Shown here: positions 9,167 through 58,709 of the stretch, one piece after another
Layout of the letters: each line of letters opens with the position of its first letter
How positions within the stretch are numbered: the first letter of the stretch is position 1
Source: Acidobacteriota bacterium
GTDB lineage: Bacteria > Acidobacteriota > Aminicenantia > Aminicenantales > Saccharicenantaceae
DNA length: 64,000 nucleotides
Direction: 5' to 3'
NCBI GenBank assembly: GCA_029569255.1
Contig: JAKQUO010000048.1
Span: 81,055-145,054 of the forward strand
Notes under the pieces: generated by a model
What the model saw: only the letters and a program-made list of their open reading frames with translations
What the model was told of the DNA's origin: nothing
Database searches by the model: none
Program-made: the position numbers and the translations under genes

Positions 9167-9225
9167 GGCCCCGTCCGGCGGCCTTATCATATCAGCAAGG
9201 CCCGCCTCTTGAACAGCCCCGGGCC

Positions 9226-9348
9226 GAGGCGCGTGTCGGGACATGTACCGCCCCGGTACGTGTCCCGCATGTCTGAACGGCGACACGTACCGGGAGGACA
9301 TGTCCCCGTTTGCCGGCCCATCCGACCCACACAACATGGAAGAGAACC
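9226..9348. repeat. family C palindromic element, left-truncated copy
   Basis: Two adjacent near-palindromes fill this intergenic stretch. The first (9237-9267) reads CGGGACATGTACCG, then its near-inverse around CCC; a second lies at about 9279-9308. The right end ACCCACACAACATGGAAG matches, inverted, the terminal repeat of the copy at 30834-30977. A core of about 40 bases starting GAGGCGCGTGTCGGG is shared with that copy. No matching left terminus is found here, so this copy looks truncated. Confidence 0.75.
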
Positions 9349-15874: not shown

Positions 15875-15977
15875 TGGGGGACATGATACCCGTTTCCCCA
15901 TTTCGGGCGGATCTGATGCCGCGTGGCGAACGGACAGTAGAGAAGGAATAGGGAAACGGGTATCGTGTCCCCCATTT
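15874..15977. repeat. family A repeat pair 1 (between C69 dipeptidase and symporter)
   Basis: A reverse unit (ATGGGGGACATGATACC, 15874-15899) faces a forward unit (GGGTATCGTGTCCCCCATT, 15951-15977) across about 50 bases of unrelated DNA. The arms can pair over about 25 bases with one G-T position. The left arm overlaps the dipeptidase stop codon; the right arm contains the GTG start codon of the symporter. Confidence 0.9.
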
Positions 15978-18079
15978 TCGGGCTGCACCCGCTCGACTTC
16001 GCCATCGTCCTCGTTTTCGTCGCCGCCGTCCTGTGGCTCGGCTGGCGGGCCTCGCGCAAGACCAAGACGGCCGAGGACTTCTACGTCGCCGGCCGCCGCC
16101 TGGGCAAGTTCTACCAGTTCTTCCTCAACCTGGGCACCTCGACCAACGCCGACCAGGCCATCGTCGTCTCCCGCGAGGTCTACCGCCAGGGCGTCGGCGG
16201 GATGTGGATCCAGTACCTCGTCCTCTTCCTGACCCCCTTCTACTGGTTCACCACGGCCTTCTTCCGCCGCGTCCGCCTGGTCACCATCGGCGACTTCTTC
16301 ACGGAGCGGTTCAAGAGCCGGTTCCTCGGCGCGGCCTTCGCCGTCTTCACCCTGTTCATGGCCTTCCTCGGCAACGGCGTCGGCTACATGGTCGCGGCCA
16401 AGACGATGATGGCCCTGACGCCCAAGCCCGCCGCGCGCTACACCGTCGAGGAGCGCCGGGCCGTCGACCTCTTCGAGGAGTACCGGGCCCTCCGGGCCCG
16501 CTCCGAGCGCGGGGAGCTCGCCCCGGCCGAGTCGGCGCGCCTGGCCGAGCTCGTCGAGCGGGAGAAGAAGGGCGAGCTGCGGGCCTTCGTCTCCTACACG
16601 GACGCGGTCTCGATCTACCTCGTCTACACGGTCATCGTGGCCGTCTACACGATGATGGGCGGCTTCCTGGCCGCGGCCATCACCGACGTCATCCAGGGGT
16701 TCCTGCTGACGGCCTTCTCGCTCCTGCTCATCCCCATCGCCCTCCACCGCGTCGGCGGGTTCGCCGGGCTCCACGCCGCCGTCCCCGATTTCATGTTCAA
16801 GCTCTTCGGCTCGGCGGCGACGAGCGAGTACGCCTGGTACACCATCCTGGCCATGGCCCTGGCGAACCTCGTCTCCATCATCGCCGTGGCCACCGGCATG
16901 CAGACGGCCGGCTCGGCCAGGAACGAGATGACCGCCCGGGTCGGCATGATCGGGGGCATGTTCTTCAAGCGCGTCATCATGATCTTCTGGGCCCTGACCG
17001 GCCTCCTGGCCATCGCCCTCTACGCCGGCCGGCTCCACGATCCCGACCTCATCTGGGGCCGCATGACCATGGACCTGCTCTTCCCCGGCGCCATCGGCCT
17101 GATGATGGCCGGGATCCTCTCGGCCAAGATGTCCAGCCTGGCCGGGTCGAGCGTCTCCTACTCGGCCCTCTTCATCCGCAACCTCTACCAGCCCTTCGTC
17201 AAGCCCAAGTCGGACCGCCACCTGATCCGGGTCGGGCGGGCCGCCATCGGCGCGACCCTGCTCGGCGGCGTGGGCGCGGCCCTGTTCATCGGCAACCTGC
17301 TCGACTTGTTCAAGTACTTCATCTCCCTGCCGGCCATCTTCGGCGCGGCCATCTGGCTGGGCTTCCTGTGGCGCCGCGTGACCCGGGCCGCGGTCATCGC
17401 CCAGGTCGTCGTCTGCTTCGCCGTCTACGCCCTCGTCCCCAACGTCTTCCAGTCGCTCGAGTGGGCCCGGACGCGGCCCTCGTTCCTGCGGGAAACGCGG
17501 GCCCGGATCGTCAACATCACCACCCGGGCCGTCGAGGAGGACGTCGCGGCGGGGCGCGCGGCCGCGGTCGGGGAGGTCATCCGCAAGGAGCACCGCAACC
17601 CGCCCGAGGGCATCTTCTACGAGAAGGTCGCCCGGAGCGACCCCCGGGACCCGGATTCGCCCAAGGTCGGGATCGGCCGGTTCCACGCCGAGCTCTGGAT
17701 CCTCGGCTGGTGCGGGGTCGATTTCACGGGCTTCTCCAAGGCCCAGCTGAGCGCCGTCCGCTTCGGCTTCGACGCTCTGTTCCCGTTCGTCCTGCTCTTC
17801 TTGCTGAGCGCCGTGACCCGGCCCGTGCCCAAGGCCGACCTCGACCGCTTCTTCGCCCGCGTCCACACGCCCGTCCAGCCGACGCCAGAGGAGGAGGAGC
17901 GGGCCCTGCGGCGCGCCGTCGAGCGCTACGAGGAGATCGAGTCGCGCAAGCTCAAGGCGGGGTCGAACTGGGAGATCATGAAGCCTCGGCTAGTCGATGT
18001 CCTCGGCTTCGCCGGCTGCTGGGCCCTCGTCGGGGTCGTCGTCCTGCTCCTCTGGCTCGTGGTAAAATGGGGGACATGA
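15965..18079 (+). CDS. sodium:solute symporter (SSS) family protein
   Basis: This 704-residue, roughly 13-helix protein begins with FGLHPLDFAIVLVFVAAVLWLGWRASRKTKTAEDFYVAGRR, the usual SSS opening, and has SAKMSSLAGSSVSYSALFIRNLY, the conserved helix-8 region. Two long soluble insertions (about residues 155-205 and 500-590) make it longer than typical members. Both termini come from family A repeats. The only available start, GTG 15965, reads GTG TCC CCC ATT (MSPI), and the last codons AAA TGG GGG ACA TGA give KWGT and stop. Substrate unknown; peptides or amino acids from the upstream dipeptidase are plausible. Confidence 0.85.
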   Translation: MSPIFGLHPLDFAIVLVFVAAVLWLGWRASRKTKTAEDFYVAGRRLGKFYQFFLNLGTSTNADQAIVVSREVYRQGVGGMWIQYLVLFLTPFYWFTTAFFRRVRLVTIGDFFTERFKSRFLGAAFAVFTLFMAFLGNGVGYMVAAKTMMALTPKPAARYTVEERRAVDLFEEYRALRARSERGELAPAESARLAELVEREKKGELRAFVSYTDAVSIYLVYTVIVAVYTMMGGFLAAAITDVIQGFLLTAFSLLLIPIALHRVGGFAGLHAAVPDFMFKLFGSAATSEYAWYTILAMALANLVSIIAVATGMQTAGSARNEMTARVGMIGGMFFKRVIMIFWALTGLLAIALYAGRLHDPDLIWGRMTMDLLFPGAIGLMMAGILSAKMSSLAGSSVSYSALFIRNLYQPFVKPKSDRHLIRVGRAAIGATLLGGVGAALFIGNLLDLFKYFISLPAIFGAAIWLGFLWRRVTRAAVIAQVVVCFAVYALVPNVFQSLEWARTRPSFLRETRARIVNITTRAVEEDVAAGRAAAVGEVIRKEHRNPPEGIFYEKVARSDPRDPDSPKVGIGRFHAELWILGWCGVDFTGFSKAQLSAVRFGFDALFPFVLLFLLSAVTRPVPKADLDRFFARVHTPVQPTPEEEERALRRAVERYEEIESRKLKAGSNWEIMKPRLVDVLGFAGCWALVGVVVLLLWLVVKWGT

Positions 18080-18316
18080 TCCCTTCGGGGACCGCGACGG
18101 ATTCCGTATTTCCTGGCCGCCCGGCCTATCAACGTGAGAGAGAAGAAGACGCGTTGGCGACGGTTGCCTCTTTGGATCAGGTGATGCGGACACCCGGGGA
18201 CGACAGCCCGCGCGAATCTCGGCATGATCGACCTCCTGCAATAGAGAGGACGATTGGAGCGGGGCGTTTTTTTTCAGCGGCGGAAAAATCAGGAAACAGG
18301 TATCATGTCCCCCATT
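18067..18316. repeat. family A repeat pair 2 enclosing a RAYT fragment
   Basis: A reverse unit (ATGGGGGACATGATCCCTT, 18067-18085) faces a forward unit (AGGAAACAGGTATCATGTCC, 18291-18316). About 200 bases lie between them, including the first 28 codons of a RAYT transposase on the minus strand. The left arm supplies the symporter's stop codon. This is the copy that links the repeat family to a transposase. Confidence 0.9.
18142..18225 (-). pseudogene. RAYT transposase N-terminal fragment
   Basis: Translation gives MPRFARAVVPGCPHHLIQRG then NRRQRVFF, matching the first 28 residues of the RAYT genes at 33786 and 58023 (for example PHHIIQRGNRRQPVFF). The homology then stops abruptly, well before the HUH motif. 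The fragment lies inside repeat pair 2 and looks like an internally deleted, non-autonomous derivative. Confidence 0.8.
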
Positions 18317-18337
18317 CAGCGAAGGCCGGCGCTCTTG

Positions 18338-19378
18338 TCATGCTCCGCTCCTCTCCTCGAAGCGACCGGCCAGCTGGCCGCAGGCCGCAGCGATGTCGCT
18401 GCCCTTGGACAGCCGCACGGTCGTCCCGACCCTGCGCTCCTCGAGCCAGCGCTTGAAGCGCGAGAGGTCGGCGTCCGTCGGGGTCTTGAACTCGAGCCCC
18501 TCGACGGGGCTGTAGGCGATGAGGTTGACCTTGGCCCGGAGGCGCCGGGCGATCGCGGCCAGGCCGTCGGCGTCGTCGAGCGCATCGTTGAGGCCGGCGA
18601 GGAGACAGTATTCGAGTGTGATCATCCGGCCGCCCGAGCGGACGTAGCCCTCGGCCGCCCGGACGACCGCGTCGAGCGGGAAGCGCCGGTTGATGGGCAT
18701 GAGCCGGTCGCGGAGACGGTCGGTCACGGCGTGGATGGAGAGCGAGACGTTGATCTGGATATCGAGTGCGGAGAGCCGGGGGAAGGCGTCGGCGAATCCG
18801 GCCGTCGAGACGGTGATGCGCCGGGCCGCGACGGCCATGCCCTCGGGGGCGTTCATGATGCGGACGGCCTTCTCCACGTGGGCCCAGTTGTCGAGGGGCT
18901 CGCCCATGCCCATGAAGACGTAGTTGGTCGGCTCGCGGCCGAGCGCGGAACGGACATGGACGGCCTGGCCGACGATCTCGGACGGACGGAGGTCGCGCCG
19001 GAAGCCGCGGCGGCCGCTGGCGCAGAAGGCGCAGGCGAACTTGCAGCCGACCTGGGTCGAGAGGCAGACCGTCAGGCGGCGGCCGGCGGGGATGATCACG
19101 GTCTCGACGTGCTCGCCGTCGCCGAGCCGGAAGAGGAGCTTGGTCGTGCCGTCTCCGGACGACCGCGTGTCGGCGACCTCGAGCCCGGCGAACGTGAACC
19201 GCGCGGCGAGCCTCTCCCGGAGCGCCTTTCCCAAGGTCGTGATGGCCTCGAACGCCGCCGCCCGCTTCTTGTAGAGCCCCTCGAAGATCTGGACCGCCCG
19301 GTAGCGCCGTTCCCCGAGCTTCTCGAGCTCGTCCTGGAGCTCGCGAAGCGTCAGGTCGCGGACATCAATGGGGGACAT
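18338..19378 (-). CDS. rlmN: 23S rRNA (adenine-C2)-methyltransferase RlmN, radical SAM
   Basis: The 346-residue protein has the radical SAM cluster CKFACAFC, GMGEPLDN, the SxHA segment (SLSIHAVTDRLRDRLMPINRR), and late cysteines in EYCLL and AACGQL that include the methyl-carrier Cys position. It modifies A2503 of 23S rRNA and, in characterised homologues, A37 of some tRNAs. The start codon and first four residues (ATG TCC CCC ATT, MSPI) come from a family A repeat, after which the usual N-terminus DVRDLTLRELQDEL follows at once. The stop lies 22 bases from another copy. Confidence 0.95.
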   Translation of the reverse strand: MSPIDVRDLTLRELQDELEKLGERRYRAVQIFEGLYKKRAAAFEAITTLGKALRERLAARFTFAGLEVADTRSSGDGTTKLLFRLGDGEHVETVIIPAGRRLTVCLSTQVGCKFACAFCASGRRGFRRDLRPSEIVGQAVHVRSALGREPTNYVFMGMGEPLDNWAHVEKAVRIMNAPEGMAVAARRITVSTAGFADAFPRLSALDIQINVSLSIHAVTDRLRDRLMPINRRFPLDAVVRAAEGYVRSGGRMITLEYCLLAGLNDALDDADGLAAIARRLRAKVNLIAYSPVEGLEFKTPTDADLSRFKRWLEERRVGTTVRLSKGSDIAAACGQLAGRFEERSGA

Positions 19379-19498
19379 GATACCTGTTACCCGATTCTAT
19401 CACAGGTGAGGAGATCTCCGCCGGGGGTCCGCCGGGGGTCTCCCTCCGCGCCGCGGGCGCTTCGGAAATGGGGAAACGGGTATCATGTCCCCCATTTT
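19367..19498. repeat. family A repeat pair 3 (between rlmN and the TrmA-type gene)
   Basis: The reverse unit at 19367-19392 carries the rlmN start codon (minus strand). The forward unit at 19471-19498 carries the stop codon of the upstream minus-strand methyltransferase. About 78 bases of unrelated sequence separate them, including a short tandem CCGCCGGGGGT. Confidence 0.9.
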
Positions 19499-20766
19499 AG
19501 GATCGCCAGGGTCTCGATGTGGGGGGTGTGGGGGAAGAAGTCGTAGACGCGGAGCGCCTCGAGCTCGTAGGCCCCGAGGAGCGCCTTCAGGTCGCGGGCC
19601 AGCGTCGCCGGGTTGCAGGACAGGTAGAGCAGCAGCGGCACGGGCGCGGCAACCAGCCCGGCGACGACCGCCGGCGCAAGGCCCCGCCGCGGCGGGTCGG
19701 CGACGACCACCCCCGGCCCCCGGCCCAGGATCTCCTCCAGCCACTCCTCGGCCGTCCCCTCGCAGACGGCGAAGTTGCCGACGCCGTTGAGGGCCAGGTT
19801 CCTCTTCAGGAAGCCGATGTTCCCCGGGTCCGGCTCGACGCCGAAGACCTCGCGGGCCCGCGCGGCCAGCGGGATCCCGAACGTCCCCACCCCGCAGTAG
19901 AGGTCGGCCACCGTCTCTCCGGCCCTCGCCGCGGCGGCCGCGGCGACGTCGTCGAAGACCCGCTCGAGGATGCCGACGTTGGCCTGGAAGAACGACCGGG
20001 CGCCGGCGCGGAAGGTCCGGCCGCCGACGGTCTCCTCGAGGAAGTCCCGGCCGAAGAGCCGCTCGTCCCGGCGGCGCTTGCCGTCGAAGACGGACGCGAC
20101 CGCCCCGGCCAGGGCGAGTTCCTTCCGCGCCCCGGCCAGGGCCTCGCCGAGAGCCGCCTTCTCCGCCTCCGAGGCCAGGTCGAGCGCGACGAGCGAGTCG
20201 CCGCGCGTCCGGCTGGTCCGAACCTCGATCGCCTCGACCGAGCGGAACGGCCCGGCCTCGATCGTCTCCCGCAGGCGGGCCAGCAGGCCGTTCACCCGCT
20301 CCGGGACGAGGTAGCAGCGGTCGACGGGCACGAACGAGGCCCGCTCGCCCGGCTCGTGATAGACGAGCTCGGCCCGCCCGGCCTCGCTCCACCGGACCCG
20401 GAGCCGGATCCGGTTCCGGTACCCCCAGCTCTCGGGCGAAGCCGTGACCGGCGGCGGGCCGCAAGGGCGCCGGAGCTCCCGGCCCATGATCTCCGCGACC
20501 TGGCCGCGCTTGACCTCGAGCTCGAGCCCGTCGTCCATGTCCTGGTAGGGGGAGCAGGCGAGGTAATGGCCGCACCTCGGCGCGACCCGCCGCGGCGAGG
20601 GCTCGACGACCGCCACGGTCCGCGCCTCGGCGTAGCTCCTCCTGTCCCTGACGACCTCGACCTCGACCGTCTCCCCGGGCAGGCCGGCGTCGGTGAAGAC
20701 GACCTTGCCGCCGGCGAGCCCCAGCCGCCGGCCCGGGTAGACGATCTTGTCGACGCGGATCCGCAT
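19483..20766 (-). CDS. TrmA/RlmD-type 23S rRNA or tRNA uracil-5-methyltransferase
   Basis: The 427-residue protein starts with a TRAM-like RNA-binding domain (IVYPGRRLGLAGGKVVFTDAGLPGE). A partial Fe-S cysteine cluster follows (CGHYLAC, third Cys missing), then FFQANVGILERVFDDV, a SAM site (VADLYCGVGTFGIPLA), VVADPPRRGL and the catalytic Cys in YLSCNPATLARDL. It ends FFPHTPHIETLAILKWGT. The last residues and the TGA stop come from a family A repeat, so the natural C-terminus (usually a few residues after VE/IET) has been replaced. Start ATG 20766. Confidence 0.85.
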   Translation of the reverse strand: MRIRVDKIVYPGRRLGLAGGKVVFTDAGLPGETVEVEVVRDRRSYAEARTVAVVEPSPRRVAPRCGHYLACSPYQDMDDGLELEVKRGQVAEIMGRELRRPCGPPPVTASPESWGYRNRIRLRVRWSEAGRAELVYHEPGERASFVPVDRCYLVPERVNGLLARLRETIEAGPFRSVEAIEVRTSRTRGDSLVALDLASEAEKAALGEALAGARKELALAGAVASVFDGKRRRDERLFGRDFLEETVGGRTFRAGARSFFQANVGILERVFDDVAAAAAARAGETVADLYCGVGTFGIPLAARAREVFGVEPDPGNIGFLKRNLALNGVGNFAVCEGTAEEWLEEILGRGPGVVVADPPRRGLAPAVVAGLVAAPVPLLLYLSCNPATLARDLKALLGAYELEALRVYDFFPHTPHIETLAILKWGT

Positions 20767-30833: not shown

Positions 30834-30977
30834 GGTTCTCTTCCATTTTCTGTGGGTGGCTATGGGATCGGTTGCCAGGTGCTCGAGGCGCGTGTCGGGA
30901 CATGTACCGCCCCGGTACGTGTCCCGTGGGCCTCCCATTTGCCGGCCCATCTGACCCACACAACGTGGCAGAGAACC
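30834..30977. mobile_element. family C MITE-like element with terminal inverted repeats and 8-bp duplication
   Basis: The 144-bp element starts GGTTCTCTTCCATTTTCTGT and ends with its inverse (20 of 24 terminal bases match). It is flanked on both sides by ATCAATCA (30826-30833 and 30978-30985), which looks like a target-site duplication. Its core carries the palindrome GGGACATGTACCG..CGGTACGTGTCCC shared with 9226-9348. No transposase is encoded. It lies directly before the ribosome-binding site of the C1 peptidase gene. Confidence 0.8.
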
Positions 30978-33655: not shown

Positions 33656-33701
33656 GTCCGCCGGGAATCATAACGGAATCCCGGCCCGCCGGTCAATTGA
33701 A

Positions 33702-33734
33702 GAAAGGGGACACACACGGTGTGTGTCCCCTTTC
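33702..33734. repeat. family B palindrome, left of RAYT 1
   Basis: GAAAGGGGACACACAC is followed by one central G and its exact inverse, giving a perfect 16-bp stem. It lies 52 bases before the RAYT start codon. Confidence 0.9.
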
Positions 33735-33785
33735 CGATTTCAATGAGAATCCTCGATGAGAACGAGCGTCTATATAGATGCCCCC

Positions 33786-34391
33786 ATGCCCCGAACAGCC
33801 AGATTGGTCATCCCTGATGTGCCGCATCACATCATTCAGCGTGGAAACCGCAGGCAACCCGTGTTTTTTACGGATGAGGATAGGAAGTTCTATCTAACAC
33901 TGCTGCTCAAATGGAGTAACATAGCCCGGCTATCCATTTGGGCTTATTGCCTGATGGAGAACCACGTGCACTGCGTAGGCGTTCCGCATCTCCCGACAAG
34001 TCTGGTTATGACCTTTGCCCAAGTGCATAGGCGATACTCTTCCGTCATCAATAAGCGCTATGGCTGGCGGGGCTATCTCTGGCAGGGCCGGTTCCTTTCC
34101 TATCCGATGGACGAGGCCTATCTTTACAGGGGCATTCGTTATGTTGAATTGAATCCAGTCCGGGCGGGACTCGTACCAACGGCCGCAGATTATCCTTGGT
34201 CAAGCGCCCGGGCCCACATCTTCGGAGAGGAGAGCATGATCCTAGGCCGAAATCCTTTGGGAATGTCAGGCGTGGAATGGGCAAAATACCTTGCCGAAGG
34301 GAACCAAAAGGTCGAAGCCGAGGTCTTCAGAGAATGTGCTCGGTCTGAGCGGCCCTTGGGCGGCGAAGCTTTCCTGAAAAGGTTTAGATAA
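33786..34391 (+). CDS. REP-associated tyrosine transposase (RAYT 1)
   Basis: I use ATG 33786 (MPRTARLVIPDVPHHIIQRG). The 201-residue protein belongs to the Y1 transposase family: HVH at residues 60-62 gives the HUH metal site, and IRYVELNPVRAG provides the candidate catalytic Tyr119. Such enzymes cut and join single-stranded palindromic REP DNA. The gene is visibly AT-richer than its neighbours, which suggests recent arrival. It sits between two family B palindromes, and its TAA stop is part of the right one, so gene and palindromes look like one mobile unit. Confidence 0.9.
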   Translation: MPRTARLVIPDVPHHIIQRGNRRQPVFFTDEDRKFYLTLLLKWSNIARLSIWAYCLMENHVHCVGVPHLPTSLVMTFAQVHRRYSSVINKRYGWRGYLWQGRFLSYPMDEAYLYRGIRYVELNPVRAGLVPTAADYPWSSARAHIFGEESMILGRNPLGMSGVEWAKYLAEGNQKVEAEVFRECARSERPLGGEAFLKRFR

Positions 34392-34420
34392 GGGGACACA
34401 CACCGTGTGTGTCCCCTTTC
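34390..34420. repeat. family B palindrome, right of RAYT 1
   Basis: AAGGGGACACACAC, a central C and the inverse arm: the same palindrome as at 33702 in inverted orientation. Its first bases are the RAYT stop codon TAA, and it ends six bases before the -35 box of the next gene. Confidence 0.9.
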
Positions 34421-34425
34421 TTTGG

Positions 34426-34454
34426 TTGACCTGGGGTGGCGGCGGACGTATAGT
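34426..34454 (+). promoter_or_regulatory. promoter of the tricorn-like protease gene
   Basis: TTGACC (34426-34431), exactly 17 bases and TATAGT (34449-34454), followed by a ribosome-binding site CAGGAGG and GTG at 34485. It begins immediately to the right of the RAYT unit. Confidence 0.65.
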
Positions 34455-43369: not shown

Positions 43370-46300
43370 GTGATGGAAAAGACGCCGGGACAAGGAGCCC
43401 GGCCGCGGGCCGGGGCGCGGGCGCGGTTCGAGGCCTGGCTCGAGGCCCGGGCCGAGAACGTGCCGCGCGTCGCCTATCCGCCCGGGCTGCCCATCGCGGC
43501 CAAGGCCGCGGAGATCGTCGAGGCCCTGCGCTCGCCGCGCCGCCGCGTCCTCATCGTCGCGGGCGAGACCGGCTGCGGCAAGAGCACCCAGATCCCGAAG
43601 ATGTGCCTCGAGGCGGGGCGGGGCGTCCGCGGGCGCGTCGGCGTCACCCAGCCGCGCCGGATCGCGGCCGTGACCATCGCCCACCGCATCGCCGAGGAGC
43701 TGGGCGAGCCGCTGGGCCGGTCGGTCGGGTACAAGATCCGCTTCCAGGACCGGACGCACCGGGACAACTACGTCAAGGTCATGACCGACGGCATCCTGCT
43801 CGCCGAGACGCAGGGCGACCGCGGCCTCCACGAGTACGACACCATCGTCATCGACGAGGCCCACGAGCGCTCCCTCAACATCGACTTCCTGCTCGGCATC
43901 ATGCGCCGGCTCCTGGACGAGCGGCCGGACTTGAAGCTCGTCATCACCTCGGCCACGCTCGACACGGAGAAGTTCTCCAAGGCCTTCAAGAACGCGCCGG
44001 TCATCGAGGTCAGCGGGCGGATGTTCCCGGTCGAGGTCGAGTACCGCGTCCCCGGCGAGGAGGAGGCCGAGGACAGGGACTACGTCGGCCAGGCCGTCGA
44101 GGCCGTCGAGTACCTGCGGCGGGAGAAGCCGCCGGGCGACGCGCTGGTCTTCATGCCGACCGAGCAGGACATCCTGGAAACGTGCCGGATGCTGGAGGGG
44201 CGGAAGTGGCCGGCGGTCAAGGTGCTGCCGCTGTTCTCGAGGCTGCCGGCGGGGGAGCAGCGGCTCGTCTACACGGTCGCGCAGCCGAAGATCGTCGTGG
44301 CCACGAACGTCGCCGAGACGTCGCTGACCATCCCGGGGATCCGCTACGTGGTCGACACGGGCGTGGCGCGGATCGCCCGGTACCAGCCGGGGACGCGCAT
44401 CAACAGCCTGCCCATATCGCCCATCTCCCGGGCCTCGGCCGACCAGCGGAAGGGGCGGTGCGGGCGGGTCAAGGCGGGGCTGTGCGTCCGGCTCTACAGC
44501 GAGGACGATTACGAGAGGCGCGACGAGTTCACCTCGCCGGAGATCCTGCGGTCGGACCTGGCCGAGGTCGTCCTGAGGATGCTGGACCTCGGGCTGGGCG
44601 ACCCGCTCGAGTTCCCGTTCATCGACAGGCCGGCGGCCAAGGCCGTCCACGACGGCTACGACACGCTCGTCGAGCTCGGGGCGGTGCGGAAGACGGGGCG
44701 GGGGAGCGGCCCGGCCCCGGCCTCGAGGTGGGAGCTCACGGACAAGGGGCGAGCCATGGCCCGGATCCAGCTCGACCCGCGGATCTCGCGCATGCTGCTC
44801 GAGGCGGGCGAGGAACGCTGCCTCCCCGAGGTCGCGGTGCTGGCGGCGGCGCTGAGCATCCGCGACCCGAGGGAGCGGCCGCCGGAGAAGGCCCAGCAGG
44901 CCGACGCCGTCCACGCCGCGTTCAAGCACCCCGATTCCGACTTCCTGGTCCTGCTCAACATTTGGAATCGCTATCACGGCGATTTCGAGAAGCTCGGCTC
45001 GCTCGTCCAGAAGCGCCGCTTCTGCCGCGAGAACTTCCTGTCGTTCCCGCGCATGCGCGAGTGGACCTACCTCCACGCGGAGATCGGAAACGCCTTGAGA
45101 GAGCTGGAGATGGGTCAGGCGGCGGGGCGGGGAAGGAGGCCTCGTCGGGGCCGGGCCGTAGATAGGGGCCACGCGGAGAGAGAAGGGGGGAAGGGAAATA
45201 GGGAAATAGGTATTGTGTCCCCGATTTTGCACGCGGACATATCGCCGGCGCTTTACGGGGCCATCCACCGGTCCGTCCTCAGCGGCTATCTCTCGAACAT
45301 CGCCGTCCACAAAGAGAAGAACGCCTACGCGGGGGCCAAGAACCGCGAGCTCCTGCTCTGGCCCGGCTCGGTCCTGTGGGGCAAGGGCGCCGGCTGGATC
45401 GTCTCGACCGAGGTCGTCCGGACCTCGCGCCTCTTCGCCCGCACGGCCGCCCGCATCGACCCGGCCTGGCTCGAACGCCTCGGCGGCCCGCTCTGCAAGC
45501 GCTCCTACTCCGAAGCCGCCTGGGACCGGGCCCGCGGCGAGGTCACGGCCAAGGAGCGGGTCACGCTTTTCGGGCTGGAGATCGTCCGCGACCGCCGCGT
45601 CTCCTACGCCCGCGTCAACCCGGCCGAGGCCCACGGGATCTTCGTCATGAGCGGCCTCGTCGGTGGCGAGATCGACGACCCGCCGCCCTTCCTCGTCCAC
45701 AACCTGGCCCTCCAGCGCCGGGTCGAGGCGATGGAGGAGAAGCTTCGCCGCCGCGACATCCTCGTGGCCGAGACCGAGATCGCCAGGTTCTACTCGGAGA
45801 AGCTCCCCGGCATTCACGACGTGCGCTCGCTGCGCAAGCTCCTCCGCGACGTCGGCGACCGGGGCGGCGACGACGCGTTCCTGCGCCTCGAGGAGGAGGC
45901 CCTCCTCAACTATCGCCCGGAGGAGGGGACAGTCTCGGCCTTCCCGGACACGGTCGAGGTGTCCGGCCGCCCCTACCGCGCCGTCTACAGGTTCGCGCCG
46001 GGGGAGGAGGACGACGGCGTCACGCTGACCGTGCCGCCCGAGCTGCTGAGCGCCATCCCGCCGGACCGGCTCGAGTGGGGCGTCGCCGGGCAGTTCGCGG
46101 AGAAGATCGCCGCGCTCATCAAGGGCCTGCCCAAGCGCTACCGCAAGCTCCTCGTCCCGGTGGGGGAGAAGGCCGAGACGATCGCCCGCGAGATGCCCCG
46201 GGCGCCCGAGGAGACGCCGCTCTTCAAGGCCGTGGCCGAGTTCGTCAAGCGCCGCTTCGGGGTCGAGGTCCCGGCCCGCGAGTGGGCCTTGGCCGACGTG

Positions 46301-47575
46301 CCGCGCCACCTGCGCCTGCGCGTCGCCGTGACCGATCCCGCGACGGGGAGGGTCATCGACGCCGGGCGCGACGTCGAGCTGCTGCGGAAGAAGCTGGGCG
46401 CGGCCGACGAGGCGCCGTCCAAGGTCGAATCGCCGGCCTGGAAAGAGGCCCAGCGGACGTGGGAGAGGGACGGGATCGAGGAGTGGAGCTTCGGCGACTT
46501 GCCCGTGAAGGTCGCCGTCGGCACCTCGCTCACGGCCTACCCGGGGCTGAAAATGGGGGACATGATACCCGTTTCCCGGATTTCGGCCGGAGCCGGGGCC
46601 CCCGCGCCAGGCCCAACCGGGGGCGGGGCCGCGCCGGGCGCGACGGTCGCCGTGCGGCTTTTCCCGACCCGGGCCGAGGCCGAGGCGTCGCACAGGAAAG
46701 GCGTCCGGGCCCTTCTCATGCGCAAGTTCGCCAAGGAGCTGGCCTTCGTCCGGCGCTACCACAGGATCCCGGCCGAGCTCGACCGGGCGGCGCTCTTCTT
46801 CGGCGGCCGCGAGGCGGTCGAGGCGGCCATCGAGGAGGCCCTGGCCCGCGACGTCTTCGAGCGTGACATCCGGGCCCAGGCCGAATACAAGGCCTACGAG
46901 ACCGAGGTCGGCCGGACGCTCTTCGAAAAGGGCCACGCCCTGACCCAGACCGTCGTCAAGATCGTCGGGCTCAACGCCAGGCTGCGGGCCGGGCTCGCGG
47001 CGGCGGGCGGCGGGGGGAGCGGGGGAGGGGCCGGCGGGGCCGCCCCCAAGCTCAGCCTCTACGAGCTCAGCCGCCTCAAAGCCAAGGTCAAGCCCGAGTA
47101 CCTCGACGCCATCGCCGCCGACCTCGAACGCCTCGTCCCGCGCGACTTCCTCTCCGTCTATCCGCTCTCGCGCCTCGCCCGCGTCCCCCGCTACCTCGAG
47201 GGGCTCGAGATCCGCCTCGGCCGGGCCCGCGTCGATCCCGACAAGGACAGGGCCAAGGCCGCCCAGCTCGAGCGCTACGCCTTCGAGCTCGCCCGCCTCG
47301 AGGCCGACCTGGCCAAGAGAACGGGGGCACGATCTTCATTGCCCGGCTCCGGGCCGCGCTCGACGGCGAGCGAGACGGGGCGCGCTTCTTTCCCTCCGAA
47401 TAGGGAAATAGGTATCATGTCCCCCATTTCGGCCGCGGTCGACGAGCTGCGCTGGATGCTCGAGGAGTTCAAGCTCTCGCTCTTCGCGCCCGAGATCAGG
47501 ACCGCCTTTCCCATCTCGGCCGTCCGCCTGGCCCGCAAGATCGCCGAGATCGACGCGCTTCAAATCGTCGCGTAA
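43370..47575 (+). CDS. hrpA: DEAH-box ATP-dependent RNA helicase HrpA with three repeat-derived insertions
   Basis: This 1401-residue helicase has GETGCGKST (Walker A), VIDEAHERS (DEAH), TSATLDT, TNVAETSLTIPGI and QRKGRCGRVKAG in order, followed by the long HrpA-specific C-terminal region. Bacterial HrpA is about 1300 residues; the excess includes three family A repeats read in frame. They encode NREIGIVSPI at 610-619, KMGDMIPVS at 1061-1069 and NREIGIMSPI at 1344-1353, each in a poorly conserved loop with extra low-complexity residues. The frame stays open throughout, so the gene looks functional. GTG 43370 or ATG 43373 may be the start. Confidence 0.9.
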   Translation: MMEKTPGQGARPRAGARARFEAWLEARAENVPRVAYPPGLPIAAKAAEIVEALRSPRRRVLIVAGETGCGKSTQIPKMCLEAGRGVRGRVGVTQPRRIAAVTIAHRIAEELGEPLGRSVGYKIRFQDRTHRDNYVKVMTDGILLAETQGDRGLHEYDTIVIDEAHERSLNIDFLLGIMRRLLDERPDLKLVITSATLDTEKFSKAFKNAPVIEVSGRMFPVEVEYRVPGEEEAEDRDYVGQAVEAVEYLRREKPPGDALVFMPTEQDILETCRMLEGRKWPAVKVLPLFSRLPAGEQRLVYTVAQPKIVVATNVAETSLTIPGIRYVVDTGVARIARYQPGTRINSLPISPISRASADQRKGRCGRVKAGLCVRLYSEDDYERRDEFTSPEILRSDLAEVVLRMLDLGLGDPLEFPFIDRPAAKAVHDGYDTLVELGAVRKTGRGSGPAPASRWELTDKGRAMARIQLDPRISRMLLEAGEERCLPEVAVLAAALSIRDPRERPPEKAQQADAVHAAFKHPDSDFLVLLNIWNRYHGDFEKLGSLVQKRRFCRENFLSFPRMREWTYLHAEIGNALRELEMGQAAGRGRRPRRGRAVDRGHAEREGGKGNREIGIVSPILHADISPALYGAIHRSVLSGYLSNIAVHKEKNAYAGAKNRELLLWPGSVLWGKGAGWIVSTEVVRTSRLFARTAARIDPAWLERLGGPLCKRSYSEAAWDRARGEVTAKERVTLFGLEIVRDRRVSYARVNPAEAHGIFVMSGLVGGEIDDPPPFLVHNLALQRRVEAMEEKLRRRDILVAETEIARFYSEKLPGIHDVRSLRKLLRDVGDRGGDDAFLRLEEEALLNYRPEEGTVSAFPDTVEVSGRPYRAVYRFAPGEEDDGVTLTVPPELLSAIPPDRLEWGVAGQFAEKIAALIKGLPKRYRKLLVPVGEKAETIAREMPRAPEETPLFKAVAEFVKRRFGVEVPAREWALADVPRHLRLRVAVTDPATGRVIDAGRDVELLRKKLGAADEAPSKVESPAWKEAQRTWERDGIEEWSFGDLPVKVAVGTSLTAYPGLKMGDMIPVSRISAGAGAPAPGPTGGGAAPGATVAVRLFPTRAEAEASHRKGVRALLMRKFAKELAFVRRYHRIPAELDRAALFFGGREAVEAAIEEALARDVFERDIRAQAEYKAYETEVGRTLFEKGHALTQTVVKIVGLNARLRAGLAAAGGGGSGGGAGGAAPKLSLYELSRLKAKVKPEYLDAIAADLERLVPRDFLSVYPLSRLARVPRYLEGLEIRLGRARVDPDKDRAKAAQLERYAFELARLEADLAKRTGARSSLPGSGPRSTASETGRASFPPNREIGIMSPISAAVDELRWMLEEFKLSLFAPEIRTAFPISAVRLARKIAEIDALQIVA
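45201..45228 (+). repeat. family A repeat, forward unit inside hrpA (1)
   Basis: The unit (ATAGGTATTGTGTCCCCGATT region) is translated as NREIGIVSPI. It lies between the helicase core and the segment ISPALYGAIHRSVLSGYLS. About 90 bases of low-complexity Gly/Arg codons precede it, without an obvious partner unit. Confidence 0.85.
46551..46577 (+). repeat. family A repeat, reverse unit inside hrpA (2)
   Basis: The reverse unit (ATGGGGGACATGATACCC) is read as KMGDMIPVS, directly after the conserved TAYPGL. About 25 Gly/Ala/Pro codons follow before homology resumes at VAVRLFPT. No forward partner is visible. Confidence 0.85.
47320..47429 (+). repeat. family A repeat pair inside hrpA (3)
   Basis: A diverged reverse unit (AACGGGGGCACGAT, from 47320) and a well-conserved forward unit (ATAGGTATCATGTCCCCC, 47403-47429) enclose about 57 bases. 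The 110-bp span is close to the intergenic pairs in size and is translated in frame between DLAKR and VDELRWMLEE. Confidence 0.75.
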
Positions 47576-48494: not shown

Positions 48495-49730
48495 ATGCCC
48501 AAAGATCCCGATCTTCCCGCCAAGAACCACGACGTCGACACGCCGTCCTGCTCCGTGCCAGCATCCCCTTCCTCTCCGTCCGCTCCGTCCTCTCCTTCCT
48601 CGCCGCCCGCGAGCGGCCCCCGTGCCGCCCCTCCCGCGGATTCCCGGGCCGGCGCGCCCAGCGGTGTGCGCCGAGCGCCCTCCGACTGGGCCGCGGCCCG
48701 CGACGCCGCCATCGACGACTTCCTCTCCCGCTTCGCCTCGGACTGCGCCGACCGCGACGTCCTGGCCGACCTCATGGTCGCCATCACCCGCCTGGCCCGC
48801 GACGGCGCCCACCGCGGCGACCTCAAGCTCCTGACCAACGCCTTCAAGGAGCTGCGCTACGCCTTCAAGGTCTTCGCCCCCTACCACGGCGTCCGCAAGG
48901 TTTCGGTCTTCGGCTCGGCCCGCACCCCGGCCGACCACCCCGAGTTCCTCCAGGCCGTCGACTTCGCGCGGCGCATGCGCGAGCGCCGGTGGATGATCAT
49001 CACCGGGGCCGGCGACGGCATCATGGGCGCCGCCCAGCGCGGGGCCGGGCGCAGCGGCTCCTTCGGCGTGGCCATCCGCCTGCCCCACGAGCAGAGGACC
49101 AACCCCGTCATCGCCGACGACCCCAAGCTCGTCAACTTCAAGTACTTCTTCACCCGCAAGATCCTCTTCCTCAAGGAGGCCTCGGCCGTGGCCCTCTTCC
49201 CCGGCGGCTTCGGCACCCAGGACGAGGGCTTCGAGGCCCTGACCATGATCCAGACGGGCAAGACCAACCTCATGCCCCTGGTCATGATCGACGCGCCCGG
49301 CGGCACCTACTGGCAGCACTGGCGGACCTACATCAAGGCCGAGCTCGTCCTCAACGGCATGATCGACGACGACGACCTGGGCCTGTTCAAGCTGACCGAC
49401 GACCTCGACGAGGCCGTGGAGGAGATCACCGGCTTCTACCGCCGCTACCACTCGATGCGCTACGTCGGGCCGCTCCTGATGTTGCGGCTGAATTCGCCGC
49501 TTTCGCCCGAAGCGCTCGAGCGCCTCAACGACACCTACGCCTCGGCCCTGCTGAGCGGGGGCCGCATCGAGCAGCATCTCACCCCGCTCGAAGGGGAAGG
49601 GGAGGAGGCCGAGCGCCCCGAGCTCCCGCGCCTGACCCTGGCCTTCAACCACAGGAGCATCGCCACGCTCCGCCGCCTGGTCGACGACGTCAATAATTGG
49701 GCATTTCCGGGAGGTATTCATAATCAGTAG
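48495..49730 (+). CDS. LOG-family (lysine decarboxylase-like) Rossmann protein, 3' end altered by an insertion
   Basis: The 411-residue protein has a Pro/Ser-rich N-terminal tail (about 60 residues), then a helical region and the LOG fold with VSVFGSAR, ITGAGDGIMGAA and PGGFGTQDE. The last is the signature of phosphoribohydrolases that release cytokinin-type bases or nucleotides. The last ten or so residues (WAFPGGIHNQ) come from an inserted island: the final 36 bases of the conserved part recur at 52141, where the frame would end VDDVNHWGT and stop. The original C-terminus was probably that one. Confidence 0.8.
   Translation: MPKDPDLPAKNHDVDTPSCSVPASPSSPSAPSSPSSPPASGPRAAPPADSRAGAPSGVRRAPSDWAAARDAAIDDFLSRFASDCADRDVLADLMVAITRLARDGAHRGDLKLLTNAFKELRYAFKVFAPYHGVRKVSVFGSARTPADHPEFLQAVDFARRMRERRWMIITGAGDGIMGAAQRGAGRSGSFGVAIRLPHEQRTNPVIADDPKLVNFKYFFTRKILFLKEASAVALFPGGFGTQDEGFEALTMIQTGKTNLMPLVMIDAPGGTYWQHWRTYIKAELVLNGMIDDDDLGLFKLTDDLDEAVEEITGFYRRYHSMRYVGPLLMLRLNSPLSPEALERLNDTYASALLSGGRIEQHLTPLEGEGEEAERPELPRLTLAFNHRSIATLRRLVDDVNNWAFPGGIHNQ
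49666..49701 (+). repeat. 36-bp direct repeat, left copy (in LOG gene)
   Basis: The sequence starting CGCTCCGCCGCCTGGTCGAC is repeated at 52141-52176 with one mismatch. Together the copies flank the 2.4-kb AT-richer island. Confidence 0.9.
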
Positions 49731-52140: not shown

Positions 52141-52176
52141 CGCTCCGCCGCCTGGTCGACGACGTCAATCATTGGG
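52141..52176 (+). repeat. 36-bp direct repeat, right copy
   Basis: Same sequence as 49666-49701 with A to C at one position. Read in the LOG frame it continues into the adjacent family A repeat as NHWGT and a TGA stop, so this copy keeps what looks like the original end of the LOG gene. Confidence 0.9.
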
Positions 52177-52265
52177 GGACATGATACTCATTCCCCCACT
52201 GTTTCGATTGCGCCAGGGCGGCAGGCGCCGCGGTAAACAGGGGGATAGGGATCATATCCCTCATT
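52171..52265. repeat. family A repeat pair 5
   Basis: A reverse unit (ATTGGGGGACATGATACTC, 52171-52197) faces a more diverged forward unit (GGGATCATATCCCTCATT, 52240-52265) across about 42 bases. The left unit overlaps the end of the 36-bp direct repeat. Confidence 0.85.
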
Positions 52266-57634: not shown

Positions 57635-57845
57635 CCCGGACGGCCAGATCATGGACGTTCTGGGCCTCTTCGGCGGCGCCGAGGCCAGCAACGTCCGCTA
57701 CCCCGGATAGGCCCCCCTGCTCAACATCTACGAAGAGCCCCGCGGCGGGGACTTCGATTTCGTCAAGATCTGCTACCCTCTATCGGGTCCGCTTCGCGGC
57801 CACCAACTTCATGGGGAACGGGATTGGCTGGGCCAAAAAATGTCG
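57635..57845 (+). pseudogene. decayed gene fragment
   Basis: One frame gives GQIMDVLGLFGGAEASNVRY, PG, a TAG stop, then APLLNIYEEPRGGDFDFVKI. A second frame continues YRVRFAATNFMGNGIGWA. This reads like one protein broken by a stop and a frameshift. The family is not recognised. It lies between repeat pair 6 and a degenerate repeat-like sequence at 57838. Confidence 0.5.
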
Positions 57846-57861
57846 CTGTCCCCATTTTCCC
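57838..57861 (+). repeat. degenerate family A-like unit
   Basis: AAATGTCGCTGTCCCCATTT shares the GTCCCCATT core and T-rich end with the forward unit but not the GGTATC part. It closes the decayed segment that begins at pair 6. Confidence 0.45.
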
Positions 57862-57891
57862 TTGACAGTCTCTCTCCTCCTATTCTAATAT
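57862..57891 (+). promoter_or_regulatory. promoter upstream of RAYT 2 and gmd
   Basis: A perfect TTGACA (57862-57867), 18 bases and TAATAT (57886-57891). The leader downstream (57894-57950) folds into a nested hairpin (GGACACTCTGGG with CCCAGAG..GTCC, inner GAGGGA with TCCCTC). It could drive RAYT 2 and the following sugar genes. Confidence 0.6.
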
Positions 57892-58022: not shown

Positions 58023-58709
58023 ATGGCCAGATTAGCCCGTTGCACTGTCGCCGGCTACCCGCATCATGTCATGCAGCGAGGAAATTGCGAGCAACGGGTC
58101 TTTGAAGAAGAGGCCGACTATCGGCACTATCTTGATCTTCTTAAAGAGTGCTCGTCTCGATATCAGGTGGATATCTGGGCCTACTGCCTGATGCCGAATC
58201 ATGTCCACCTCATCTGCGTCCCCAAGAGCGGCGAAGGGTTGGCCCGAGCCAGCAACACACTGCATATGCGCTTCGCCCAGCACTTCAATAGCCGACGCTC
58301 ACTGCAGGGCCATCTCTGGCGGGCCCGATTCATGTCTTGCGTCCTGGATGAAGCCTGCGCCCTGGAAGAGATCCGTTTCGTCGAAAACAATCCTGTCCGC
58401 GCCGGTCGAGTCGCTTTGGCTGAAGAGTATCGCTGGTCAAGTGCCAGGGCCCATGTCCTGGGCGGATCCGATCCTGTCCTGTGTGATGGCTTTGCCCTGG
58501 CCCGAGAGATCGGCGACTGGCGCACTTACCTCCGAAGCCCCGGTGACCCGGCCCGGCTCCTTCTGGTCCGATCCTGCCTCAAGACGGGCCGTCCAGCCGG
58601 ACGGGTCGAATTCGTCCGCCAGCTCGAAAGCATCCTCGGCCGTCGTCTCAAAGCCTTGCCGCGGGGAAGACCCCGGAAAACAACCCGGATTCGATATCAA
58701 GATCGATAG
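58023..58709 (+). CDS. REP-associated tyrosine transposase (RAYT 2), catalytic Tyr replaced by Phe
   Basis: The 228-residue protein has the RAYT core: [12 protein letters not shown] motif NHVHL (residues 60-62), [11 protein letters not shown] and a basic C-terminal tail ([15 protein letters not shown]). Where RAYT 1 has IRYVELNPVRAG, this copy reads [12 protein letters not shown], so residue 119 is Phe instead of the expected catalytic Tyr. It is therefore likely unable to cleave DNA, although the frame is intact. The gmd gene starts 11 bases after its stop. Confidence 0.85.

Follow-up and report, generated by a model that had tools for sequence, protein, structure and literature searches.

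How does a dispersed palindromic repeat come to be read in frame, three times over, inside one helicase gene, and what keeps the copies there? This question is raised by hrpA in the window (the whole 64-kb stretch of DNA analysed here), which comes from the 2.74-Mb genome of an uncultured Aminicenantes bacterium (G000; assembly 94% complete). The encoded protein passes the full-length HrpA model TIGR01967 with 1170 bits against the NCBIfam cut-off of 722.75. It contains the Pfam domains DEAD, Helicase_C, HA2_C, OB_NTP_bind and DUF3418, together with the motifs GETGCGKST, DEAH and QRKGRCGR.

Family A units in the loops of HrpA

A sequence-only reading of this DNA had assigned three peptides of HrpA to units of a repeat, here called family A. 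Indeed, NREIGIVSPI (residues 610-619, nucleotides 45197-45226), KMGDMIPVS (residues 1061-1069, nucleotides 46550-46576) and NREIGIMSPI (residues 1344-1353, nucleotides 47399-47428) all fall within the one hrpA frame, and they are encoded by family A units with 2, 0 and 0 mismatches to the core of the family, respectively (Table 1). The frame is preserved at each insert, as had been claimed, and alignment of orthologues identifies the segments as insertions relative to distant Aminicenantes.

The multiple alignment and the structure prediction that had been proposed as checks were both carried out. The alignment comprised the HrpAs of other Aminicenantes and of Desulfobacterota, plus 12 genomes of the same genus, in 11 of which hrpA was found. 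It borders four loops that are expanded in the genus (L1, L2, L4 and L3, in gene order) and mostly short outside it, where the orthologues lack these inserts. AlphaFold models, made of both HrpA halves, place all insert sites in low-confidence loops (pLDDT <50); the earlier assignment of the inserts to poorly conserved loops is thus upheld by alignment, genome census and structure prediction alike. In particular, L1, the linker from the helicase part to the OB fold, has pLDDT <50 over residues 582-618 and maps between residues 609 and 614 of E. coli HrpA. L2 is a beta-hairpin turn (pLDDT <50 from about residue 1068-1072 to 1088), while L3 is the turn of a long helical hairpin (pLDDT <50 at residues 1321-1349). 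L4, whose insertion was absent from the earlier reading, is of equally low confidence at residues 1215-1227, and the homologous loop of the sister species G008 holds a palindrome of a second family, described below.

Table 1. Position of hrpA, its expanded loops, family A elements and transposase genes in the window
Feature	Position	Strand	Details
hrpA, DEAH-box RNA helicase gene that carries the inserts, product of 1401 aa	43370..47575	+	single ORF
Loop 1 (L1) expansion, residues ~581-619	45110..45226	+	family A unit 45195-45230 (+), no partner arm; alignment
Loop 2 (L2) expansion, residues ~1061-1091	46550..46642	+	family A unit 46548-46583 (-), reverse orientation; alignment
Loop 4 (L4), Gly-rich lineage-specific insertion, residues ~1208-1229	46994..47056	+	alignment
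Loop 3 (L3) insertion, residues ~1317-1354	47318..47431	+	decayed left arm 47320-47344 and intact family A unit 47397-47432 (+)
Family A inverted pair, intergenic, intact long hairpin (reference element)	15869..15980		fold z -6.6
Family A inverted pair, intergenic, intact long hairpin, ~400 bp upstream of the RAYT-like gene	57530..57632		fold z -7.8
Family A inverted pair, intergenic	19363..19500		core matches
Single family A unit, variant AGTATCATGTCCCC	52167..52202	-	core match
Decayed family A transposase unit	18062..18320		A unit (-) 18062-18097, RAYT relic (-) 18100-18225, A unit (+) 18285-18320
RAYT-like (Y1_Tnp) transposase gene, other lineage	58023..58709	+	PF01797 42 bits, over cut-off
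Complete RAYT unit	33686..34436	+	gene 33756-34391 between inverted repeats 33686-33732 and 34390-34436

The sequence-only reading had held that the same residues in close orthologues free of the repeat family would speak against an insertion. The residues are in fact common to relatives. Insert 1 in L1 is shared by G000 and G010, with a decayed counterpart in G014; insert 2 in L2 is shared by G000, G004, G009 and G014, with a decayed counterpart in G011; and family A remnants are present in L3 throughout most of the genus. Among the latter, G005, G008 and G013 have a decayed remnant at site 3, yet no family A copy within one mismatch. Since genera outside lack the segment, these common residues are inherited fossils of an old insertion and not native to HrpA.

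The hairpins inside the hrpA of G000 have decayed to single arms, a point that the earlier reading had missed. Their fold z is about 0 (about -0.1 for insert 3), against the values of -6.6 and -7.8 of the intact intergenic pairs. Among the three, only insert 3 retains both halves of a pair, as had been described for 47320-47429; its left half (47320-47344) is real but too decayed for a hairpin. This left arm is homologous to the better-preserved left arm of G011 (0 of 1000 shuffles) and resembles the family A unit (5 of 500 shuffles), while a search for the partner arms of inserts 1 and 2 detected none. Core dN/dS of hrpA is 0.15-0.29, with 0.19-0.29 for the gene of the window compared with sister species, and the gene is therefore under purifying selection, while the differences in the shared L2 peptide mostly change amino acids; together, these values fit inserts that are neutral at the protein level within a constrained gene.

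The family A unit (AAATGGGAAACGGGTATCATGTCCCCCATTT, with the core GGTATCATGTCCCC) is a dispersed, multi-copy, short palindrome that often occurs as inverted pairs, as do REP and REPIN elements. In the window, the core has 12 matches with up to two mismatches, against a mean of 0.27 and a maximum of 2 in dinucleotide shuffles; in the G000 genome, 66 sites match the core and 4 match the reversed pattern. When up to one mismatch is allowed, 11 of the 48 units of G000 lie inside this 64 kb, against 1.1 expected. The corresponding copy numbers are 41 in G007, 38 in G014, 25 in G009, 9 in G010 and 0-3 in the rest of the genomes; all copy counts given here cover families A and C within the stated limits of mismatch.

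The window contains further repeats. A 36-nt direct repeat (49666-49701 and 52141-52176) is 97% identical, its second copy abutting a family A unit. Near-identical duplicated stretches at 9225-9348 and 30884-30977 (43 nt at 100% and 44 nt at 91%) hold the palindrome CGGGACATGTACC..GGTACGTGTCCCG, and one of them directly precedes the start of a papain-like peptidase gene. At 57838-57864, another REP-like stretch (AAAAAATGTCGCTGTCCCCATTTTCCC) separates a family A pair from the RAYT-like gene 58023-58709.

Transposase genes and the state of hrpA in sister species

RAYT genes are known to be flanked by inverted REPs (Nunvar et al. 2010, PMC2817692). The same arrangement, a RAYT gene between inverted units of its own family, is found for family A in G009 (a 224-aa frame) and G011; in G010 a unit is present on the retained side of a RAYT gene, where the contig ends, and in G014 a truncated RAYT copy stands beside a unit. 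Family C, the second palindrome, flanks a different RAYT lineage in G010 and adjoins one in G009. Overall, Y1_Tnp genes are present in 10 of 13 genomes of the genus, and none was found in G008.

In the window, the RAYT relic between two family A units is 81% identical, over the matched part, to the family A-flanked RAYT of G009, and the 94% complete G000 assembly yielded no intact RAYT of family A. Judged by position, the stop codon of the sodium:solute symporter ORF upstream (15965-18079) comes from the left unit beside the relic. The role of family A transposase was considered for the RAYT-like gene 58023-58709 (NF047646 64 bits, under the cut-off of 80; 44% identical to the family A RAYT) and rejected, the lineage of the relic being the better match. 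The inverted repeats of the complete RAYT unit at 33686 are of the GGGGACACACACCGTGTGTGTCCCC type, a REP family distinct from A and C.

RAYTs are defined by a His-x-His motif and by a Tyr beside NP(L/V)(R/K)xG (PMC2817692). By inspection, the G009 protein has both, as NHVHL and RYVEKNPVRAG, and it scores over the Pfam Y1_Tnp cut-off. The curated NCBIfam RAYT model is not passed (54-64 bits against a cut-off of 80), and inspection of the same protein found no conserved Thr near the N-terminus, where the region reads IQRGN; the proteins are therefore called RAYT-like and regarded as a divergent group. At the end of the family A unit no GTAG or CGTC tag was seen on inspection, and family C contains GTAG, though not as a recognisable hairpin head. 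The elements are therefore filed as REP-like and RAYT-linked, not as GTAG or CGTC REPs. Most likely, family A has spread through mobilisation by a RAYT, an HUH/Y1 tyrosine transposase.

Family C (AAGAGGGGGTCAAACCTACCTTTTGCTGCAAAAGGTAGGTTTGACCCCCTCTTG, translated as K(R/M)GSNLPFAAKGRFDP(L/I)L) is unrelated to family A, equally RAYT-linked, and did not figure in the sequence-only reading. In sister species it occupies hrpA loops used by family A, and the fourth loop in addition. In G008, three near-identical copies are present in L1, L2 and L4, the L4 copy replacing about 20 residues in the alignment instead of being a clean insertion; G006 has family C in L2 and a variant in L1, while G005 has in L1 a relative with a 34-base stem. 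The palindrome of family C is perfect, with a fold z of -11.6. Empty states are also found, as G009 has no L1 insert and G013 no recognisable insert in L2. Copies of family C (up to three mismatches) number 97 in G008, 44 in G010, 41 in G011, 27 in G006, 3 in G000 and 0 in G007, and the family present in hrpA is usually, though not always, the one that is abundant in that genome. In G007 (94% complete, 7 contigs, 41 family A copies) no hrpA match was found; all genomes of the genus are metagenome-assembled and some are incomplete. On the core tree, roughly nine or ten insertion events would be needed, a count that depends on weakly supported branches (0.03 for G010) and on possible refreshed copies.

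The concentration in hrpA was quantified in a census of about 180 element clusters from six genomes, in which a codon-usage classifier was uniformly applied and gene calls rest on codon usage. Eight of the nine intact in-frame insertions lie in hrpA. The ninth, a family C palindrome in another reading phase, lies inside the DNA polymerase III alpha gene of G006 (L314:630-684), and its discovery ended an initial view that hrpA was the only gene to host the elements. By genome, in-frame insertions account for 3 of the 51 clusters called in G000, where about 45 calls are real, and 3 of 48 in G008, all in hrpA; 1 of 20 in G009, again in hrpA; 0 of 25 in G007, where hrpA was not found; and no genuine one among 28 in G014. 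In G006, where 10 clusters were examined, one is in hrpA and the other in the polymerase gene. Three family A calls (C25:84170 and C30:64855 in G000, C11:10851 in G014) were rejected as chance core matches, the rest of the unit being absent. By length, about 0.07 hrpA insertions would be expected in G000 and in G008, and three were observed in each (P about 5e-5 each); the G000 enrichment is biased because the finding was selected for its repeats, while the G008 figure played no part in that selection.

Recurrent capture as the probable explanation, and its alternatives

The best explanation, to which we assign a probability of about 0.75, is recurrent capture of REP/REPIN-type mobile palindromes in permissive HrpA linkers. 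Insertion relative to orthologues, a multi-copy family, association with RAYTs, location in loops, recurrence and decay are all documented here. Elements would enter hrpA as inverted pairs, as in intergenic DNA, and the survivors would be only those insertions that keep the frame, contain no stop codon in the phase in which they are read and land in a disordered linker. The pair would later decay, one arm losing its palindrome and becoming low-complexity coding sequence, while the other could stay recognisable. HrpA has at least four linkers of this kind, namely the junction between helicase core and OB fold, a beta-hairpin turn, the stretch after a long helix and the turn of a helical hairpin, and members of the genus have repeatedly acquired such inserts, from no fewer than two unrelated families. 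Tolerance rather than benefit probably keeps the inserts in place, although pure tolerance does not easily account for the share of intact in-frame insertions that hrpA has taken. Also weighing against the explanation are the failure to find an intact family A RAYT in G000 or any Y1_Tnp gene in G008, and the replacement of residues at L4 of G008.

That concentration in one gene, seen across species and with two element families, could instead mean that the copies are kept for a function: hairpins or rare codons in the message would slow or collide ribosomes and thereby let HrpA tune its own synthesis, or the peptides would alter HrpA. The long in-frame stems kept in G008, G006 and G005 are in line with this, as is the role of E. 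coli HrpA as a rescue helicase for ribosomes that have stalled or collided (Campbell et al. 2025, as cited in PMC11633108 and PMC13159725). However, all three hairpins are destroyed in G000, the differences in the L2 peptide mostly change amino acids, G009 and G013 do without an insert in L1 and a recognisable one in L2, respectively, and G007, rich in family A, appears to lack hrpA altogether, so that a function is unlikely. Similarly unlikely is hrpA as a functional landing place, where elements would be recruited or selectively kept, fresh hairpins would serve as a stall sensor tuning HrpA synthesis, and decayed inserts would be replaced. Insertions might also be more frequent for physical reasons, with hrpA as a preferred target or as part of a local hopping zone in which RAYT genes and REPs cluster around it. 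The excess of family A units in the window points in this direction, as do the 8 of 25 RAYT-like genes of the genus that lie within 40 kb of hrpA (in G000, G005, G011, G013 and G014; 0.7 expected) and the presence of family C at one L2 codon position in G006 and G008 despite a fourfold-site divergence of 0.40. We regard such a zone as doubtful: the window was chosen for its repeats, some of the neighbouring RAYTs look orthologous between species and are thus not independent but partly shared by ancestry, and the G008 contig with hrpA has neither a RAYT nor family C copies outside the gene.

Compatible with recurrent capture, and a possible addition to it, is the refreshing of old insertions, with other copies in the genome acting as donors in gene conversion or as the source of a re-insertion. 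It is suggested by the L2 element of G004 and G009, identical at 28 of 28 bases despite a fourfold divergence of 0.44 in hrpA; by the L1 family C palindrome, perfect in G008 and decayed in its near relative G013 (fourfold divergence 0.10); and by the right arm of L3 in G000, which equals the consensus while the left arm has decayed. The sites are few, however, and a similar pattern would be left by horizontal exchange of hrpA or by independent insertions at one spot, so that refreshing is proposed tentatively. Removal of the segments after transcription or translation, in the manner of intervening sequences, would suit their palindromic origin and loop location, but it is very improbable, as the palindrome is gone in G000, no intron or intein architecture is present, the frame is kept as translation requires, and an Rfam search of the window returned no known RNA family. 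Finally, the peptides might be native to HrpA and their likeness to the repeat a coincidence, a reading for which nothing speaks but their shortness. The long DNA identity to a multi-copy element, the decayed partner arm, the absence in outgroups and the unrelated repeats in the corresponding loops of sister species leave this practically without credit, and the alignments refute it. Recurrent capture in tolerant linkers thus remains the preferred reading.

Relation to known repeats

The inserts had been likened to the Rickettsia palindromic elements. In-frame palindromic insertion is common to both, but the parallel is one of analogy only, the present element being REP/REPIN-like, tied to RAYTs and almost confined to hrpA. 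In the account given by PMC10969869, the Rickettsia elements are about 150 bp long and lie in many unrelated genes (Ogata et al. 2000), a wide entry that was not found in the six genomes of the census; lineage, element length, gene distribution and the RAYT link set family A apart.

A closer match is provided by the intragenic REPs of the GTAG and CGTC families that Di Nocera et al. (2013, PMC3733652) described, short palindromes that lie in frame within genes either as units or as inverted dimers. Their hosts often act on nucleic acids and include uvrA, recB, dnaE/dnaE2 and, in O. terrae, RNA helicases; some tagged genes, uvrA among them, have two insertions, some are the sole REP-tagged gene of their species, and two Xanthomonas species have different REPs at nearly the same place in recB (PMC3733652). 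The elements described here similarly are short palindromes or inverted dimers in frame, with a DNA polymerase III alpha gene and an RNA helicase gene as hosts. They differ in lineage and units, with no GTAG or CGTC tag recognised, and in that two unrelated families enter one gene at four sites in about ten species, with stages of decay and an empty site. Inverted pairs of short units in tens of copies, together with a flanked Y1/HUH transposase, also recall REPINs, BIMEs and RAYTs (PMC2817692; Bertels and Rainey 2011, PMC3116915), although REPINs and BIMEs are classically extragenic and often headed by GTAG, and the RAYT here scores under the NCBIfam cut-off. None of the papers searched joins 'repetitive extragenic palindromic' with Aminicenantes. 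The kind of insertion has thus been known since 2013, while the concentration in one gene, the two families, the four loops and the visible stages of decay set the present variant apart.

An initial restriction of the phenomenon to Aminicenantes was given up after repeats had been found in L1 of Desulfobacterota HrpAs, six of which have repeat-like expansions of this loop. A GGAATTCGGAATGCGGAAT-type repeat is present in L036, L040 and L044 (39, 143 and 31 matches in their genomes), CCCCCTTTCTTAAAGGGGG in L058 (738 matches) and a related motif in L077 (69 matches), while L1 of L038 looks repetitive.

Collectively, these data indicate that mobile DNA has repeatedly rebuilt one protein at the same four loops. 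Fresh and decaying copies, fossils and an empty site coexist, so that a comparison of sister species lets the life cycle of such an intragenic element be followed. Mobile DNA that elsewhere is found almost only between genes is captured by hrpA again and again, which sharpens a question raised in 2013, namely what makes nucleic acid-acting proteins the favoured hosts of intragenic REPs; the presence of other repeats in L1 of Desulfobacterota makes this question testable across phyla.
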